Program-made: the position numbers and the translations under genes
NCBI GenBank assembly: GCA_945902775.1
Contig: CAMDMY010000016.1
Span: 1 to 44,050 of the forward strand
Origin: Chryseobacterium gleum
Lineage (GTDB): Bacteria > Bacteroidota > Bacteroidia > Flavobacteriales_D > Crocinitomicaceae
Length of the DNA: 44,050 bases
Direction: 5' to 3'
The notes under the pieces: model-generated
Database searches by the model: none
What the model was told of the DNA's origin: nothing
The model's input: only the letters and a program-made list of their open reading frames with translations
Shown here: piece by piece, positions 2,047 through 10,957 of the stretch
Layout: every line of letters starts with the position of its first letter
How positions within the stretch are numbered: position 1 is the stretch's first letter

Positions 2047-2132
2047 TTTTATTAAAATTGATTAACAGAATCAATATTTGATTGAAAAATAAAATTTGTA
2101 AAAAGTACATTTAGCACAAATATAAAGCAACG

Positions 2133-2189
2133 ATGAAAAATAGTTCAAACATAATTAACGTCATTTCTATTATTATTAATATCGATTAA
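2133..2189 (+). CDS. Ile-rich leader peptide of the ilv operon attenuator
   Basis: This short open frame starts at ATG 2133 and stops at TAA 2187. It encodes 18 residues, MKNSSNIINVISIIINID. Seven are isoleucine (positions 7, 8, 11, 13, 14, 15, 17) and one is valine, the products of the genes that follow. This composition and its place just upstream of a terminator hairpin and ilvE match the classic leader peptides of ribosome-mediated attenuation. Low charged Ile-tRNA would stall ribosomes around 2151-2183. The stop codon overlaps the first arm of the predicted antiterminator (2188-2197), so a ribosome that reaches the stop would cover it. The frame is too short to prove by statistics; the case rests on codon content plus RNA geometry. 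Confidence 0.8.
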   Translation: MKNSSNIINVISIIINID

Positions 2190-2251
2190 TGAGAAAGTAA
2201 CTATTTTGTAAATATTAGTAGCCTTTCTCATTTGAGAAAGGCTTTTTTTTT
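2188..2251 (+). promoter_or_regulatory. Transcription attenuator: competing antiterminator and terminator helices
   Basis: Two exclusive helices can be drawn. Antiterminator: AATGAGAAAG (2188-2197) pairs perfectly over 10 bp with CTTTCTCATT (2223-2232). Terminator: AGCCTTTCTC (2220-2229) pairs perfectly over 10 bp with GAGAAAGGCT (2234-2243), with a 4-base loop and a run of T to 2250. Both use 2223-2229. A weaker upstream hairpin, ATTAAT (2175-2180) with ATTAAT (2185-2190), could act as the 1:2 pause-type structure. The logic is that stalling at Ile codons frees 2188-2197 and allows read-through into ilvE, while fast translation to the stop masks it and allows termination. Helices are seen directly; function is inferred. 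Confidence 0.8.
2220..2251 (+). terminator. Intrinsic terminator inside the ilv leader
   Basis: A perfect 10-bp stem with loop ATTT is followed directly by a T-run, 80 bases before the ilvE start codon. As a plain terminator for the LytTR gene it would be oddly far away, more than 300 bases past its stop. Its place after the Ile-rich leader peptide makes an attenuator the better reading. Confidence 0.85.
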
Positions 2252-2330: not shown

Positions 2331-3218
2331 ATGTATTATAATGAATCAACAATTGTTTTCCTAGATGGAGAATTTTTAAAAGCGTCTGATGTTAAAACAG
2401 GACTTTACAGTCAGACTTTGCATTATGGTAATGGTGTTTTTGAAGGAATTCGCTCTTATAATACTCCAGACGGGGTACGTATTTTTAAAGCGAAAGAACA
2501 TTTTGATCGTTTGCATGCATCGGCAGAAAAAATGCATATCAAGTTAGATATAACTTCTGAAGAGCTTGAACATGCTGCATATAAAGTGTTAGAGAAAAAT
2601 AATTTAACTGATGCATATATACGTCCTCTTGTATATTTAGGAGAAAATATGTCTCTTACACCAACAGATGTAGTTCATGTAGCGATAGTAGCTTGGAAAT
2701 GGGGTACATTATTTGGTGATGAAATGTTGAATGTTATGCTTTCTTCTTATGAAAGACCAAATCCAAAATCGTGTCACATGGAAGCAAAAGTAGTTGGACA
2801 TTATACAAATAGTATTTTGGCAACAACTGAGGCTAAACAAAAAGGTTTTCATGAAGCACTTTTGACTGATATGAATGGATTTATAGCTGAAGGTCCTGGC
2901 GCTAATTTCTTTATGGAAAAAGACGGGAAATTTATTACTTGTCCATTAGGAAATATTTTAGCTGGAATTACAAGAGCTACAGTTTTTGAATTAGCGAAAG
3001 AATTAAATTTCGAAGTAGAAGAAAGATTCTTTAAACCAGAAGAAATTTACACTGCAGATGCAGCTTTTTTCTGTGGAACTGCAGCTGAGGTTGCTGGCAT
3101 TAAAAAATTCAATGAGTATGAATTTCCATTGGCTTGGGAAGATTCTAACAGTCAATTAATTCAACGTGCTTACCAACGAAGAGTAGCAAGTAACGAGTAT
3201 GTAAATTTATATATATAA
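2331..3218 (+). CDS. ilvE: Branched-chain amino acid aminotransferase
   Basis: IlvE moves the amino group between glutamate and the branched-chain 2-oxo acids, the last step of Ile, Val and Leu synthesis; it is a cytoplasmic PLP enzyme of fold type IV. The 295-residue length is normal for the family. Visible marks are the N-terminal [14 protein letters not shown] block, the PLP-binding lysine Lys153 in [12 protein letters not shown], the EGPGANFF segment and [13 protein letters not shown] near the phosphate-binding site. It is the first structural gene after the attenuator. The stop is followed 10 bases later by ilvD, which supports co-transcription. Confidence 0.95.
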
Positions 3219-3228
3219 ACTTTTTCTG

Positions 3229-4902
3229 ATGGTATTAAATAAATACAGTAGAACAATTACGCAAAACGAAACACAACCTGCTGGACAAGCAATGTTATAT
3301 GGCATCGGTTTAACTGATGCTGATATGCAAAAGGCACAAGTAGGTATTGCAAGTGCTGGTTATGAGGGGAATACATGTAACATGCATTTAAATGATCTTT
3401 CAAAAGATATCAAAAAATCTGTTCAGAATGCTGATTTAGTTGGATTGATTTTCAATACAATTGGAGTGAGTGACGGTATGTCGAACGGAACAGATGGAAT
3501 GCGTTATTCTTTGGTTTCTCGTGATATAATAGCTGATTCGATTGAAACAGTTTGTGGAGCTCAATACTATGATGGTTTAATTGCTGTTATGGGATGTGAT
3601 AAAAACATGCCAGGTTCGTTAATTGCTATGGGAAGATTAAATCGTCCTGCAATTATGGTGTATGGAGGAACAATCGCCCACGGAGAATGGAAAGGAGAAA
3701 AATTAAATATTGTTTCTGCTTTCGAAGCACTTGGTAAAAAAATGAACGACACAATAACTCCTGAAGATTTTAAAGGAATTATTAAGAACGCTTGTCCTGG
3801 AGCTGGTGCATGTGGTGGAATGTATACTGCAAACACAATGGCTTCAGCTATTGAAGCTTTAGGTATGAGTTTACCATACAGTTCTTCTAATCCAGCATTA
3901 AGCGCAGATAAAAAACACGAGTGCGATGCAGCTGGAAGAGCTATTCGAGTGCTTTTAGAAAAAGATATCAAGCCTAGAGATATTATGACGTTGAAAGCAT
4001 TTGAGAATGCGATTAGAATTGTTATCGTTTTAGGTGGTTCTACAAATGCTGTTTTACATTTAATTGCGATGGCTCATTCAGTAGGAATTAATTTGACGAT
4101 TGATGATATTCAAAAATTAAGTGACATAACTCCTTTATTAGCAGATTTAAAGCCGTCAGGTAAATCATTAATGGAAGATCTACATAATGTCGGAGGTACT
4201 CCAGCAGTTATGAAGTATATGTTTGAAAATGGAATGTTACATGGAGATTGTTTAACAGTAACAGGGAAAACAGTTGCTGAAAATTTAGCTGAATTACCAT
4301 CGTTTCAGAAAGGGCAAGAAATCTTTTTACCAATTGAAAAAGCGATTAAACCAACTGGACATCTACAAATTTTATATGGTAATTTAGCACCACAAGGTTC
4401 AGTTGCTAAAATTAGTGGTCACGAAGGTGAATTCTTTGAGGGAACAGCAGTTGTTTTTGAAGATGAATTTACCGTGATTGATGGTTTGAAAGATGGACGA
4501 ATTAAAGCGGGTTCCGTTGTTGTAATCAGAATGTGTGGACCAAAAGGTGGACCAGGAATGCCTGAAATGTTAAAACCAACTTCTGCCATTATGGGTGCAG
4601 GTTTGGGAGATTCTGTCGCACTGATTACGGATGGACGTTTTTCTGGAGGTTCACATGGATTTGTAGTTGGTCATATTACTCCTGAAGCAATTGAAGGAGG
4701 GACTATTGGATTAGTTCAAGATGGTGATATTATTGCAATTGATGCGGTAAATAATACCTTGACATTGAAAGTAAGTGAAGAAGAATTAGCTGAAAGAAGA
4801 AAAAATTGGAAACAGCCAGCTTTAAAAGTGTCACAAGGCGTTTTATATAAGTATGCCAAATGTGTAGCAACGGCATCAGAGGGTTGTATAACAGATAAAT
4901 AA
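3229..4902 (+). CDS. ilvD: Dihydroxy-acid dehydratase
   Basis: IlvD dehydrates dihydroxy-isovalerate and dihydroxy-methylvalerate to the 2-oxo acids used by IlvE. The 557-residue protein has three conserved cysteines expected to hold the Fe-S cluster: Cys50 (GNTCNMH), Cys123 (MGCDKNMPG) and Cys195 ([11 protein letters not shown]). The spacing fits the [2Fe-2S] type of the family. The C-terminal block [15 protein letters not shown] is also typical. It sits between ilvE and ilvB; the following 99 bases hold a copy of the dispersed 28-bp repeat rather than a promoter I can recognise. Confidence 0.96.
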
Positions 4903-4988
4903 GTTAGATATTAGATAGTTAGAAGTTAGATATTAGACACATTGTGAATCAGTCTAATGTCTATTGTCTAAAAATCTAAAGTCTAATA
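4903..4988. repeat. Dispersed TCTAATGTCTA repeat, gene-less copy between ilvD and ilvB
   Basis: The ilvD-ilvB gap is built almost wholly from RTTAGATATTAGA and TCTAATGTCTA words. Bases 4951-4978 match the 28-bp unit at 16736-16763 (opposite strand) at 27 of 28 positions. Bases 4903-4938 carry related words in inverted orientation (TTAGATATTAGAC, then GTCTAATGTCTA). The arrangement, two inverted arms with no gene between, looks like an empty or collapsed copy of the unit that flanks the four-helix-bundle gene at 17 kb. Confidence 0.75.
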
Positions 4989-5001
4989 AAATTCTAAAAA
5001 A

Positions 5002-6693
5002 ATGGAAAAAGAAATTAGAGGAGCAGAAGCAGTTATAAAAAGTTTAGTTGCTGAAGGTGTGCATACAATTTTTGGTTACCCAGGTGGGGCAATAATGCCA
5101 ATATATGATGCTTTATATGATTATAAAGAAGATATCAATCATATTTTAGTAAGACATGAACAAGGAGCAATTCACGCAGCTCAAGGTTTTGCTCGTACAT
5201 CAGAAACGTGTGGTGTTTGTTTTGCAACATCTGGTCCTGGAGCAACTAATCTGATTACAGGTTTAGCAGACGCAATGATTGATTCTACACCTGTTGTGTG
5301 TATTACAGGTCAAGTTGCTTCACATTTATTAGGTACAGATGCATTCCAAGAAACAGATGTAATAGGTATTTCTATGCCAGTTACAAAATGGAATACACAA
5401 GTTAAAAGAGCGGAAGATATTCCTGCTGTATTAGCAAAAGCATTTTTTATTGCACGATCTGGAAGACCAGGGCCAGTATTAGTAGATATAACTAAAGATG
5501 CACAGTTTGGAATGATGGATTTCAATTACGTTCCTTGCAATGATATTAGAAGTTACTTCCCAAATCCTGTAATAAATGTATCTAAAATTGATGATGCAAT
5601 TAAATTAATAAATGAGTCTAAAAAACCATATTTATTAGTAGGTCAAGGTATTACACTTTCAAATGCAGAACAAGAATTATTAGATTTCGCTGAAAAATCA
5701 GGTATACCAGTTGCTTCTACTTTGTTAGGTTTAGGTGCGTTTCCTCCAGATCATCCATTGTATGTAGGGTATTTAGGAATGCATGGGAATTATGCACCAA
5801 ATATAAAAACGAATGACTGTGATGTATTAATTGCGGTAGGAATGCGCTTCGATGATCGAGTTACTGGAGATGTTAGTCGATATGCTAAACAAGCAAAAAT
5901 TATTCATATTGATATCGATTTTGCTGAATTGAATAAAATCGTCACAAATGAAGTTTCCATTCATGCAGATGCAAAAGAAGCTTTAGCCTTGTTAAATAAG
6001 AAAGTTGAAAATCGTTCTCACGATGCTTGGATTCAAGAATTTAGAGATGCAGAAAAATTAGAGGTAGAAGCAGTTATTGAAGATGCAATTCATCCTAAAC
6101 ACGATCGACTTCAAATGGCTGAAGTAGTCAATATGCTTTCTGAAAAAACAGATGGAAAAGCAATTGTTGTAACAGATGTAGGTCAGCATCAGATGGTTAC
6201 ATCGCGTTATTATCAGTATAAAGCGCAAAACACAAACATCACTTCTGGTGGTTTAGGTACAATGGGATTTGCTTTACCTGCTGCGATTGGAGCAAAATTA
6301 GGTAATCCATCTAAAACGGTAGTAGCTATTATTGGTGATGGTGGTTTCCAAATGACGATTCAAGAATTAGGAACAATACTACAATTTAAGATTGATATTA
6401 AAATCTTAATCTTAAATAATAACTTCCTTGGAATGGTTCGTCAATGGCAAGAAATGTTTTTCGAAAAACGTTATTCTTTTACCGATATTGTAAATCCAAA
6501 TTTTATTCAAATTGCAAAAGGGTATGATATCGAGGCTAAAAGTATAGATCAACGAACTGAATTAAGTGAAGCTTTAGATACAATGTTATCGAGTAAAGTT
6601 GCCTACTTATTAGAAGCTGTTGTAGAGCAAGAAGAAAATGTATTCCCAATGGTAGCAACAGGTGCATCTGTATCTGAAATCAGATTAAACTAA
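5002..6693 (+). CDS. ilvB: Acetolactate synthase large (catalytic) subunit
   Basis: This ThDP enzyme joins pyruvate with pyruvate or 2-oxobutyrate, the first common step to Val/Leu and Ile. The 563-residue chain has the usual three domains. Catalytic Glu53 lies in RHEQGAIHAAQG, the FAD/binding domain is central, and the C-terminal GDGGFQMTIQELGTI...LNNNFLGMVRQWQ region is the ThDP/Mg motif (GDG to NN). The regulatory subunit starts 6 bases after its stop. Several ThDP enzymes look alike, but the adjacent ACT-domain subunit and the ilv context settle the call. Confidence 0.95.
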   Translation: MEKEIRGAEAVIKSLVAEGVHTIFGYPGGAIMPIYDALYDYKEDINHILVRHEQGAIHAAQGFARTSETCGVCFATSGPGATNLITGLADAMIDSTPVVCITGQVASHLLGTDAFQETDVIGISMPVTKWNTQVKRAEDIPAVLAKAFFIARSGRPGPVLVDITKDAQFGMMDFNYVPCNDIRSYFPNPVINVSKIDDAIKLINESKKPYLLVGQGITLSNAEQELLDFAEKSGIPVASTLLGLGAFPPDHPLYVGYLGMHGNYAPNIKTNDCDVLIAVGMRFDDRVTGDVSRYAKQAKIIHIDIDFAELNKIVTNEVSIHADAKEALALLNKKVENRSHDAWIQEFRDAEKLEVEAVIEDAIHPKHDRLQMAEVVNMLSEKTDGKAIVVTDVGQHQMVTSRYYQYKAQNTNITSGGLGTMGFALPAAIGAKLGNPSKTVVAIIGDGGFQMTIQELGTILQFKIDIKILILNNNFLGMVRQWQEMFFEKRYSFTDIVNPNFIQIAKGYDIEAKSIDQRTELSEALDTMLSSKVAYLLEAVVEQEENVFPMVATGASVSEIRLN

Positions 6694-6699
6694 GAAATA

Positions 6700-7239
6700 A
6701 TGGAAAATAATACATATAATATATCAGTTTTTACTGAAAATAGTGTTGGGATGTTGAATCGTATCACTATTCTTTTTACAAGAAGAAATATTAATATTGA
6801 AAGTATAACTGCTTCAGAATCAGAGATTGAAGGTATACACCGTTATACAATTGTTGTAAAAGAACCAAAAGAAGTAGTTCGTAAAGTCGTTTCTCAAATT
6901 GAAAAACAAATTGATGTTGTAAAAGCATTTTATCATTCTGATGATGAAGTAGTTTATCAAGAAATTGCTTTATATAAACTTCCTACAAATATGTTGGCAA
7001 GTGGAGGTGATGCCGAACGAATTGTTAGAGCTCATCATGCGCGTATTTTGACGATTGAATCTGAATTTACTATTCTAGAAAAAACAGGATATCCAGAAGA
7101 AATTAAAGAATTGTTTACCGAGTTAAAACCATTTGGTTTATTAGAATTTGTTCGATCAGGTCGAGTTGCAATTTCTAAACCAATGAAAACATTGGAAGAA
7201 CATATTGAAGATATGAATAACGAAAAAATCATTTTATAA
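6700..7239 (+). CDS. ilvN: Acetolactate synthase small (regulatory) subunit
   Basis: The 179-residue protein starts with an ACT domain (about residues 6-80: ISVFTENSVGMLNRITILFTRR and RYTIVV). It has the C-terminal IlvN/IlvH domain with the ARILTIESEFTILEKTG stretch. The length is closer to IlvH than to the shorter E. coli IlvN. It binds the catalytic subunit and normally gives valine feedback inhibition. The start follows the ilvB stop by 6 bases and the stop precedes ilvC by 12, consistent with one polycistronic message. The symbol ilvH would be equally valid. Confidence 0.94.
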   Translation: MENNTYNISVFTENSVGMLNRITILFTRRNINIESITASESEIEGIHRYTIVVKEPKEVVRKVVSQIEKQIDVVKAFYHSDDEVVYQEIALYKLPTNMLASGGDAERIVRAHHARILTIESEFTILEKTGYPEEIKELFTELKPFGLLEFVRSGRVAISKPMKTLEEHIEDMNNEKIIL

Positions 7240-7251
7240 TTTAAAAACAAG

Positions 7252-8733
7252 ATGGCAAATTATTTTAACTCATTATCATTAAGAGAACAATTAAACCAAT
7301 TAGGGGTTTGCGAATTTATGGACATCAGTAATTTTTCTGATGGTATAAATGCTTTAAAAGGAAGTAAAATTGTTATTGTTGGTTGTGGTGCACAAGGATT
7401 AAATCAAGGATTAAATTTAAGAGATTCTGGTTTAGATGTTAAGTATACTTTACGTAAAGATGCAATTGAAACAAAACGTGCTTCTTGGAAAAATGCTATT
7501 GATAATGGATTTGAAGTAGGAACATATGAAGAATTGATACCAACTGCAGATTTGGTAATCAACCTTACACCTGATAAACAACATACAAGTGTAGTTTCTG
7601 CAATTATGCCGTTAATGAAAAAAGGTTCTACATTATCTTATTCTCACGGTTTCAATATCGTTGAGGAAGGAATGGAAGTCCGTAAAGATATTACGGTTAT
7701 TATGGTTGCGCCTAAATGTCCTGGAACGGAAGTTCGTGAGGAATATAAAAGAGGTTTTGGTGTTCCAACATTAATCGCTGTTCACCCAGAAAATGATCCA
7801 GAAGGAAAAGGATGGGCTCAAGCGAAAGCTTATGCAGTTGGAACTGGAGGGCATAAAGCAGGTGTTTTGAAATCTTCTTTTGTAGCTGAGGTAAAATCTG
7901 ATTTAATGGGAGAGCAAACTATTTTATGTGGTGTTCTTCAAACTGGTTCTATTCTTTGTTTCGATAAAATGATTGAAAAAGGAATTGAGAAAGGGTATGC
8001 ATCTACTTTAGTTCAATATGGTTGGGAAGTTATTACCGAAGCATTAAAGCAAGGTGGTATTACTGCAATGATGGATCGCTTATCAAATCCTGCAAAAATC
8101 AAAGCTTTTGAATTATCAAATGAATTGAAATCAATTATGCGTCCACTTTATGAGAAACACCAAGATGATATTATGAGTGGACATTTCTCTAAAACGATGA
8201 TGGAGGATTGGGCAAACAACGATAAAAATTTATTGACTTGGAGAGCTGAAACTGGAAATACCGCATTCGAAAAATCAGAAGCTACAGCTAAATTAACGGA
8301 ACAAGAGTTTTTTGACAATGGTTTACTAATGGTCGCTTTAGTTAGAGCAGGTGTAGAATTAGCATTTGAAGTAATGGTAGAAACAGGAATCAAAGAAGAA
8401 TCTGCTTACTACGAATCTTTACACGAAGCTCCATTAATAGCAAATACAATTGCCCGTAAAAAATTGTTCGAAATGAATAGAGTGATTTCAGATACAGCTG
8501 AATACGGATGTTATTTATTTGATCACGCTTGTAAACCATTATTAGCTGATTTTATGAACAAAGTAGAAACCGATATTATAGGTGGAAATTACAACGATGG
8601 TAAAAATAATGGCGTTGATAACAAAGAAATTATTGCGGTAAACAAAGTGTTACGTTCTCATACAATTGAAAAAGTCGGTGATGTATTACGTGCTGCAATG
8701 ACGGATATGAAAGTAATTAATACCGTACAATAA
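7252..8733 (+). CDS. ilvC: Ketol-acid reductoisomerase, long class II form
   Basis: IlvC isomerises and reduces acetolactate and acetohydroxybutyrate using NADPH and Mg. The protein has 493 residues, like the E. coli class II enzyme and unlike the ~330-residue class I form. The nucleotide-binding motif is seen as [17 protein letters not shown], with [19 protein letters not shown] in the following core. The duplicated helical knotted domain follows, including [13 protein letters not shown] and the [10 protein letters not shown] segment. It is the last biosynthetic gene before the inserted RhuM/Fic gene, which starts 7 bases after its stop. Confidence 0.96.
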
Positions 8734-8740
8734 TTTCTTA

Positions 8741-9712
8741 ATGAGTGAAATTGTAATCTATAATGCTGACCAAGGGGTTCAAATTGATGTGAAATTTGAA
8801 AATGAATCTGTTTGGTTATCTCAAAGACAAATTGCAGATTTATTTGTAAAAGATGTAGATACAATTGGCTTACATTTTAAAAATATTTTTTTAGAAGGAG
8901 AATTAGATGAAATTTCAACTACCGAGTTTTACTCGGTAGTTCAAAAAGAAGGAGAAAGACAAGTAAAAAGGAAAATAAAGTTTTACAATTTAGATGCAAT
9001 TATTTCTGTAGGATATCGAGTTAACTCAATTCAAGGAACTAAATTTAGGCAATGGGCTACTAAATGTTTGAAAGATCATTTGGTTAAAGGATATTCTTTA
9101 AATCAAAAAAGATTAGAAGAATTAAATCAGATTGTGAAAATTATTGAACAATCAACAAAAGAAGAGGAACTCTTACTTTCAGAATCTAAAGGACTTTTAA
9201 ATATATTAAGTAATTATACAAAAAGTTTTATTCTATTAAATCAATTTGATTCAAATCGATTGGATACAAGTAGTTTGAACGAAAATATCACGTATGAAAT
9301 TGAATATAAAGAAGCTATTTTAGCAATCTCTGAATTAAAAAGACAGCAAATAAAGAAAAAGGAAGCTACAGAACTTTTTGGAAATGAAAAAGATGATAGC
9401 TTTAAAGGAACATTACAAAATGTAGTTCAATCTTTTGATGGGGCATATTTATACCCAACAATTGAAGAACAGGCAGCACATTTACTTTATTTCATTATAA
9501 AAAATCATTCATTTAGTGATGGAAACAAGAGGATAGGTGCATTTATGTTTGTCTGGTTTCTAGAGAAAAATAAGCATTTATTTAAAAATTCTGGGGAAGT
9601 AAAAATAAATGATAATGCATTGACAGCTTTGGCCTTATTAGTAGCGCAAAGTAATCCAGATGATAAAGAATTGATAACAAAATTAATTTGTAATCTGATA
9701 AAGAACAATTAA
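8741..9712 (+). CDS. RhuM-like / Fic-Doc (death-on-curing) family protein in the ilv operon
   Basis: The 323-residue protein has two parts. The N-terminal part (about 1-120) is RhuM-like, with VWLSQRQIADLF and FYNLDAIISVGYRVNS. The C-terminal Fic/Doc part (about 190-323) carries HSFSDGNKRIGAF; His256 is the likely catalytic residue of the HxFx(D/E)GNKR core, so a nucleotidyl- or phospho-transfer activity on a protein target is expected. No clear inhibitory (S/T)xxxE(G/N) motif or separate antitoxin gene is seen. It starts 7 bases after ilvC, and its stop TAA (9710-9712) touches the ilvA ATG (9713). It is therefore embedded in the operon and likely controlled with it. The target and any role in amino acid metabolism are unknown. 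Confidence 0.88.
   Translation: MSEIVIYNADQGVQIDVKFENESVWLSQRQIADLFVKDVDTIGLHFKNIFLEGELDEISTTEFYSVVQKEGERQVKRKIKFYNLDAIISVGYRVNSIQGTKFRQWATKCLKDHLVKGYSLNQKRLEELNQIVKIIEQSTKEEELLLSESKGLLNILSNYTKSFILLNQFDSNRLDTSSLNENITYEIEYKEAILAISELKRQQIKKKEATELFGNEKDDSFKGTLQNVVQSFDGAYLYPTIEEQAAHLLYFIIKNHSFSDGNKRIGAFMFVWFLEKNKHLFKNSGEVKINDNALTALALLVAQSNPDDKELITKLICNLIKNN
8918..8940 (+). other. Perfect 10-bp hairpin inside the RhuM/Fic coding region
   Basis: ACTACCGAGT (8918-8927) and ACTCGGTAGT (8931-8940) form a perfect 10-bp stem with loop TTT within the region coding for STTEFYSVV. It is much stronger than expected for coding sequence of this base composition. It may slow ribosomes or polymerase, or mark a processing site in the ilv message; none of this is shown. 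Confidence 0.7.
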
Positions 9713-10957
9713 ATGATTTCACTACAAAACGTTGAAGAAGCAAAAGTTAATTTAGAAGGAGTTGCCTATAAAACTCCGCTAATGAAAAGTTTGAATTTAT
9801 CTGATAAATATGAAGCTAATATTCTTTTGAAAAGAGAGGATTTGCAGTTGGTTCGTTCTTATAAGTTAAGAGGTGCTTATAATAAAATGTATCATTTATC
9901 AGATGAACAAAAATCAAATGGAGTTGTATGTGCAAGTGCTGGAAATCACGCTCAAGGTGTGGCTTATTCTTGTATGGTTCTTGGTATTCAAGGGACGATT
10001 TATATGCCTTCAACTACTCCAAAACAAAAAATTAAACAGGTTGAACTTTTCGGGAAATCGAAAGTGAGAATTGTTTTAGCTGGTGATACGTTTGATGATG
10101 CTTTTAAAGTTGCTCTTCAATATGGTGAAGAAAATAATTTGACTTTCATTCACCCTTTTGATGACCCATTGGTTGTTGCAGGGCAAGGAACAGTTGCTTT
10201 AGAAATTTTAGAAGCGGCTATCGAACCAATTGATTATCTTTTTGTCCCAATAGGAGGAGGAGGATTAGCAGCAGGTGTATGTACTGTTTTCAAAGCATTA
10301 AGCCCTAATACTAAAATTATAGGTGTAGAACCAGAAGGGGCTCCTTCCATGTTGACATCCATTAAAAATGGGGTAATTACAACTTTAGAACATATAGATA
10401 AATTTGTAGATGGTGCTGCTGTGAAACGAGTAGGGAATTTGAATTTTGAGATTTGTAAAGATGAATTGTCACAAGTAGTTAGTGTTCCTGAAGGGAAAGT
10501 TTGTAGTACAATCTTAAGTTTATATAACGAAGAAGCAATGGTAGTTGAACCTGCTGGTGCTTTGACGATAACTGTATTAGACTTTTTTCAAGAAGAAATC
10601 AAAGGGAAAAATGTAGTTTGTATTGTTAGTGGAAGTAATAATGACATCACTAGAACTGAAGAAATAAAAGAACGTTCATTGGTTTACGAAGGTTTGAAAC
10701 ATTATTTCATGGTTCAATTTCCTCAACGTCCAGGAGCTTTAAAAGCTTTTGTTAATGATGTTTTAGGACCCGAAGATGATATTACTTATTTCCAATTTTC
10801 TAAGAAAAATAGTAGAGAAAGCGGACCAGTAGTGGTTGGAATTGAATTAAAAAACAAAGAAGATTTTCAAGGAATTTGTGATAAACTTAATGCATTGAAT
10901 TTTACTTTTGAATACTTAAATAATAACCCAACTTTATTTGGATTGTTAGTAGGATAA
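9713..10957 (+). CDS. ilvA: Threonine dehydratase (biosynthetic, short form)
   Basis: IlvA deaminates threonine to 2-oxobutyrate, the committed step to isoleucine. The 414-residue PLP enzyme shows Lys51 in RSYKLRGAYNKM as the Schiff-base lysine, the serine/asparagine loop ASAGNHAQGVAY, and the glycine-rich phosphate loop PIGGGGLAAGV. The C-terminal ~80 residues (FMVQFPQRPGALKAFVNDVLG) form one ACT-like regulatory domain, as in short biosynthetic forms with about 420 residues. Its ATG directly follows the RhuM/Fic stop, so translation is likely coupled. Placing ilvA in the same attenuated message explains the Ile-heavy leader peptide. Confidence 0.95.
   Translation: MISLQNVEEAKVNLEGVAYKTPLMKSLNLSDKYEANILLKREDLQLVRSYKLRGAYNKMYHLSDEQKSNGVVCASAGNHAQGVAYSCMVLGIQGTIYMPSTTPKQKIKQVELFGKSKVRIVLAGDTFDDAFKVALQYGEENNLTFIHPFDDPLVVAGQGTVALEILEAAIEPIDYLFVPIGGGGLAAGVCTVFKALSPNTKIIGVEPEGAPSMLTSIKNGVITTLEHIDKFVDGAAVKRVGNLNFEICKDELSQVVSVPEGKVCSTILSLYNEEAMVVEPAGALTITVLDFFQEEIKGKNVVCIVSGSNNDITRTEEIKERSLVYEGLKHYFMVQFPQRPGALKAFVNDVLGPEDDITYFQFSKKNSRESGPVVVGIELKNKEDFQGICDKLNALNFTFEYLNNNPTLFGLLVG

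Follow-up and report, generated by a model that had tools for sequence, protein, structure and literature searches.

A candidate isoleucine/valine leader-peptide attenuator upstream of ilvE, and its single and serial counterparts in Bacteroidota

What is the function of the short isoleucine-rich reading frame that lies upstream of ilvE, and does it act together with the terminator that follows it? In the 44,050-nucleotide stretch of DNA analysed here (referred to throughout as the window), a LytTR gene ends at 1893, and the elements listed below lie between this gene and the branched-chain operon that they are proposed to control.

2133..2189, + strand: leader peptide ORF, 18 codons plus TAA, encoding MKNSSNIINVISIIINID (basis: sequence, shuffles and relatives)
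2188..2197, + strand: antiterminator 5' arm, AATGAGAAAG, overlapping the leader stop codon (basis: masked folds and arm covariation)
2220..2251, + strand: intrinsic terminator, with stem 2220-2229/2234-2243 and loop 2230-2233, then a T-run
2223..2232, + strand: antiterminator 3' arm, CTTTCTCATT, of which 2223-2229 is common to the terminator 5' arm
2331..10957, + strand: proposed controlled operon comprising ilvE, ilvD, ilvB, ilvN, ilvC, a RhuM/Fic-domain gene and ilvA (basis: ORFs, NCBIfam and Pfam)

We conclude, with a probability that we put at about 0.93, that 2133-2251 is a ribosome-mediated transcription attenuator, making expression of ilvEDBNC-ilvA dependent on charged tRNA-Ile and probably also on charged tRNA-Val. 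When isoleucine is plentiful, a ribosome trailing RNA polymerase would reach the leader stop codon and cover 2188-2197, allowing the terminator at 2220-2243 to form and transcription to end. When Ile-tRNA is scarce, the ribosome would instead stall on codons 7-15, just upstream of this arm, and 2188-2197 would pair with 2223-2232 ahead of synthesis of the terminator's second half, so that polymerase would continue into ilvE. Translation of the leader, polymerase pausing or coupling, and a rise in read-through upon shortage of isoleucine (or valine) are expected by analogy with the trp, his and ilv operons of Escherichia coli.

The leader starts with the ATG at 2133 and stops with TAA at 2187-2189. 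Direct reading gives seven Ile codons (one ATA, five ATT and one ATC, at positions 7, 8, 11, 13-15 and 17) and a single Val codon, GTC, at position 10, so that the frame described in the original prediction is exact to the base. When the 130 nt upstream of the terminator were shuffled 3000 times with dinucleotides preserved, an ORF with such an excess of Ile and Val codons arose in only 0.17% of cases (p = 0.0017). The terminator, located between the leader and the first structural gene, ilvE, and conserved in relatives, has a 10-bp stem (AGCCTTTCTC-ATTT-GAGAAAGGCT) with a T-run behind it and a folding z-score of −4.64 against shuffles. It is the sole terminator-like site on the + strand within 1880-2340, where shuffled sequences gave a mean of 0.0 (s.d. 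0.3). The competing helix, 2188-2197/2223-2232, comprises ten perfect pairs (z = −3.97), and since 2223-2229 is used by both structures, the antiterminator and the terminator are mutually exclusive. The perfect 10-bp terminator stem and the 10-bp alternative helix with its first arm over the leader stop, both proposed previously, were therefore confirmed.

In order to follow the behaviour of these helices during transcription, we folded the nascent window RNA up to 2233 with the position of the ribosome masked. The probability of the antiterminator was 0.94 with the ribosome on codons 8-15, decreasing to 0.11 at codon 17 and to 0.00 at the stop; the arm at 2188-2197 is left free by ribosomes stalled as far as codon 15 and is covered by a ribosome at the stop. 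Once the 3' arm of the terminator is present (RNA to 2243), the terminator is preferred in all ribosome states, indicating that the decision must fall during transcription and that the switch is kinetic. The ribosome-free case is a point against the model, since the nascent RNA then also folds into the antiterminator and the finished RNA into the terminator, which makes the outcome a matter of kinetics. The switch was not reproduced when the complete leader was folded at equilibrium; as known attenuators are kinetic, we do not count this against it.

The original prediction called for a comparison of the DNA upstream of ilvE in related genomes, looking for conserved Ile/Val codons and compensatory changes in the two helices. 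We gathered this region by three routes, giving 125 distinct loci. A module consisting of a leader ORF, an antiterminator at or near its stop and a terminator was found in 114 of the 125, in members of the same genus and as far as records that carry the labels Crocinitomicaceae, Fluviicola, Cloacibacterium, Cyclobacteriaceae, Microscilla and Chitinophaga. This count is a lower bound, because the automatic finder misassigned the leaders of L016 and L148, placed the Pedobacter loci L053, L056 and L061 under its Ile/Val threshold and missed L062, in which the T-run is broken. Among the module-negative loci, leuB lies directly upstream of ilvE in L087 and L098, and three relatives (L012, L146 and L150) have an ilvE locus truly without a module. 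The codon excess reached p ≤ 0.05 in the shuffle test in 50 of 59 non-redundant modules. In a sample of the phylum comprising 40 loci, one per genus, in which the 2 kb upstream of ilvD were scanned, 19 carried a candidate module, in the majority immediately upstream of ilvE or ilvD. On this comparative evidence, the leader-peptide type of attenuator appears to be widespread in Bacteroidota. Leader peptides such as that encoded at 2133-2189 escape annotation, and the comparative approach recovers them.

The antiterminator arms have changed in a compensatory manner, as the second part of that comparison anticipated. All the computational checks proposed with the original prediction favoured it. 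Diverged antiterminator arms retain their partners (GAGAAAG/CTTTCTC, GGATGG/CCATCC, GGAGG/CCTCC and GTCAGG/CCTGAC), and the pairing energy of −14.05 kcal/mol for a locus's own arms compares with −9.60 kcal/mol for arms swapped between loci, a difference equalled in 0 of 5000 permutations. The spacing is likewise conserved. In the 59 non-redundant modules the median distance from the first base of the last codon in the Ile/Val run to the start of the antiterminator 5' arm is 15 nt (IQR 13.5-17); measured from the leader stop codon, the arm starts at a median of −1 (IQR −10 to 1). The footprint of a ribosome reaches roughly 12 nt ahead (PMC4833913), and with a spacing of 15 nt a stalled ribosome would therefore leave the arm free and one at the stop would cover it. 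Spacing, arm position and masked folds agree in supporting the geometry of ribosome-mediated attenuation that had been claimed for this site. We consider it very unlikely that the leader, although translated, leaves control mainly to translational coupling to ilvE, to Rho, or to the terminated leader RNA or peptide acting in trans. Leader peptides that act in trans do exist (peTrpL, PMC7298713), and the idea of reinitiation downstream of leader ORFs has been put forward (PMC4833913), but the distance from terminator to ilvE varies from 18 to more than 200 nt among loci, with no sign of coupling, and the spacing that is conserved is that from ribosome to antiterminator.

The codons in the leaders correspond to the content of the operons behind them. 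Operons ending in ilvA have leaders with Ile and Val codons and few Leu codons. Leaders with runs of Leu codons (MNTSFTTDLNVIINLTTLLLLQDNKAL) were confined to operons that continue into leuCD, which is the case in one clade, Pedobacter, with leuC and leuD after ilvC. In genomes with the order leuACDB-ilvE, the internal leader before ilvE carries Ile and Val codons, and no Leu-rich leader was seen by eye upstream of leuA. The absence of Leu codons from the window leader had been seen as fitting an operon that contains ilvA and lacks leuABCD; the case is stronger than was stated, since a whole-genome search for the LeuA family found no LeuA in the window's genome (3.09 Mb, 99.6% complete). The sole HMGL-family protein in this genome is nearest to hydroxymethylglutaryl-CoA lyase, yet falls below the cut-off of that model. 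HisG was also absent in a whole-genome search, and chorismate-binding hits were obtained.

Two further observations concern gene content. At 8741-9712, between ilvC and ilvA and within the operon, the window carries a RhuM-family gene with a C-terminal Fic/DOC domain, a gene that was seen in L029 only among relatives with an operon reaching ilvA. In addition, a match to IlvD is missing in four of 11 same-genus genomes (76-83% complete) and in 37 of 59 relatives overall, which may reflect frequent loss of branched-chain synthesis or gaps in the assemblies, two causes that these counts do not separate.

The dependence of leader codons on the operon also bears on whether a metabolite riboswitch or T-box might use the same terminator, with the ORF being incidental. 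In other phyla, such elements are frequent regulators of ilv and leu operons. Nevertheless, we consider this explanation very improbable, given that no Rfam covariance model (T-box, riboswitches or curated leaders) matched the window at its gathering score, that merely some 30 nt separate the leader stop from the terminator, and that conservation lies in the Ile/Val codons and their spacing to the arm, with leader codons changing along with the operon. Finally, the notion that the terminator is simply the ordinary one of the upstream LytTR gene, and the ORF a chance product of AT-rich DNA in which Ile codons are cheap and the helix arms short, has a negligible probability and we regard it as refuted, because ORF, antiterminator and terminator recur jointly before ilvE whatever gene precedes it, the ORF alone has p = 0.0017, the arms co-vary and their spacing is conserved.

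Additional candidate elements around the leader are as follows.

2137..2145, + strand: region 1 of a possible long-range 1:2 helix, AAAATAGTT (basis: minimum-energy fold; similar helix in part of the family)
2199..2207, + strand: region 2 of the possible 1:2 helix, AACTATTTT (same basis)
2106..2113, + strand: candidate −7 promoter element, TACATTTA, 27 nt before the leader ATG

The minimum-energy fold of the window pairs the start of the leader (2137-2145) with bases behind the antiterminator arm (2199-2207). Long-range helices that have diverged in sequence and are still complementary were observed in part of the family (L039, L042, L113 and L122), the longest being of 13 perfect pairs, in L039. 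When all modules are taken together, a locus's own helix arms pair better than arms exchanged between loci (0 of 5000 permutations), though many loci are without the helix. We rejected the 1:2 helix as a universal feature, as it is strong in part of the family and weak or absent in Chitinophaga and others. Where present, it might have the role that the 1:2 helix plays in trp, or promote termination on transcripts with an untranslated leader. As for the promoter, TACATTTA has one mismatch to the Bacteroidota consensus TAnnTTTG, and the same-genus locus L031 has TACATTTG at an equal distance from its leader. A perfect TATCTTTG is located farther upstream, at 2039, so that the element at 2106 is no more than a candidate promoter. 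The consensus was found in 28 of 58 modules, compared with 4.4 in shuffles; the best-placed site in the window is the one with a single mismatch.

Some relatives carry at least two modules in series. The automatic count gave 14 such loci (L049, L051, L134, L145, L147, L149, L151, L152, L154-L157, L033 and L169), L169 being a triple; further tandems were recognized by eye in L016 and L148, and in the phylum sample in L207, L214 and L235. Each module in a tandem has its own Ile/Val-rich leader, antiterminator and terminator. In 11 of the 14 automatically counted loci a TAnnTTTG element lies no more than 30 nt from the first leader, and in one of the 14 this holds for the last leader; that the element is mostly found only before the first leader suggests one promoter and serial control. 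If this is correct, termination would be multiplied by the repeats and the response made sharper, and the tandem and triple forms would allow one to ask how repeating a switch in series alters its sensitivity.

The choice of Val codons in the leaders is also skewed. In the 59 non-redundant modules GTC was observed 51 times with 15.2 expected, and GTT eight times with 34.5 expected, where expectations derive from genes at the same loci; relatedness among the loci means that these counts are not independent. Leader Ile codons show no such preference for C (ATC 47 observed, 93.6 expected). GTC is the rarest valine codon among the window's genes and is the one used in its leader, at 2160-2162; GTCATT is present in 31 of the 59 leaders. 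GTC is the top Val codon in the two locus groups closest to the window; in the most distant group it is far above GTT, with GTG slightly commoner than GTC. Among the tRNA loci (L174-L201) recorded for the window's genome, a fragmented assembly, we found one tRNA-Val, with anticodon TAC, and none with GAC. These codon choices offer a natural test of theory on how the sensitivity of attenuation is determined by tRNA charging and by the control codons (PMC1183508). A phylum-wide Ile/Val leader-peptide switch of Bacteroidota, combining same-signal attenuators in series (two, and once three) with rare GTC codons for valine control, is a generalization to which we would give roughly even odds.

Vitreschak et al. 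are said to have predicted some attenuators in Bacteroidetes/Chlorobi in 2004. In Flavobacterium psychrophilum, 'strong clues' for leader-peptide attenuation upstream of amino-acid operons were reported together with mapped 5' transcripts (PMC9723704); the organism belongs to the same phylum, and the main text of that report presents no ilv example or geometry. Leader-like ORFs have been mentioned in B. thetaiotaomicron (PMC7366714). In the literature searched we found no experimental test of leader-peptide attenuation in Bacteroidota. As a qualification of the assertion that such switches are little described experimentally in this phylum, leader-peptide attenuation had been proposed earlier in flavobacteria (PMC9723704). 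The present loci provide attenuators defined to the base and backed by comparison, in a phylum that has seen hardly any tests of this kind of control.

The mechanism itself is classical, of the E. coli trp, his and ilv type, and the window element adds a well-supported case. In common with the attenuators of E. coli and Salmonella (ilvGMEDA, ilvBN, leu, thr, his and trp), it has a short ORF rich in codons for the product, an intrinsic terminator, an exclusive antiterminator and a stop codon placed so that a terminating ribosome would cover the antiterminator arm, and the orthologous pathway would be controlled. It differs from them in that the antiterminator arm lies directly on the stop codon, the leader is compact, with the terminator about 30 nt past the stop, and the control codons are Ile and Val only, without Leu; Bacteroidota modules moreover have no generally conserved pause helix and use Bacteroidota promoter and initiation signals. 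The ilvBNC operon of Corynebacterium glutamicum likewise has a leader-type attenuator of a branched-chain operon, for which a three-hairpin model has been tested by mutation (PMC11857589), although it is actinobacterial, with another operon and leader, the comparison being drawn from the published description. Less familiar is the occurrence of serial copies in relatives. In the literature searched, the only tandem leader-ORF attenuators found were those of Salmonella mgtCBR, called singular there, in which two ORFs respond to different signals, ATP and proline (PMC3641672). The Bacteroidota tandems resemble mgtCBR in having two leader ORFs per transcript, but in place of a different signal for each ORF their leaders are all Ile/Val-rich, each with a terminator of its own.
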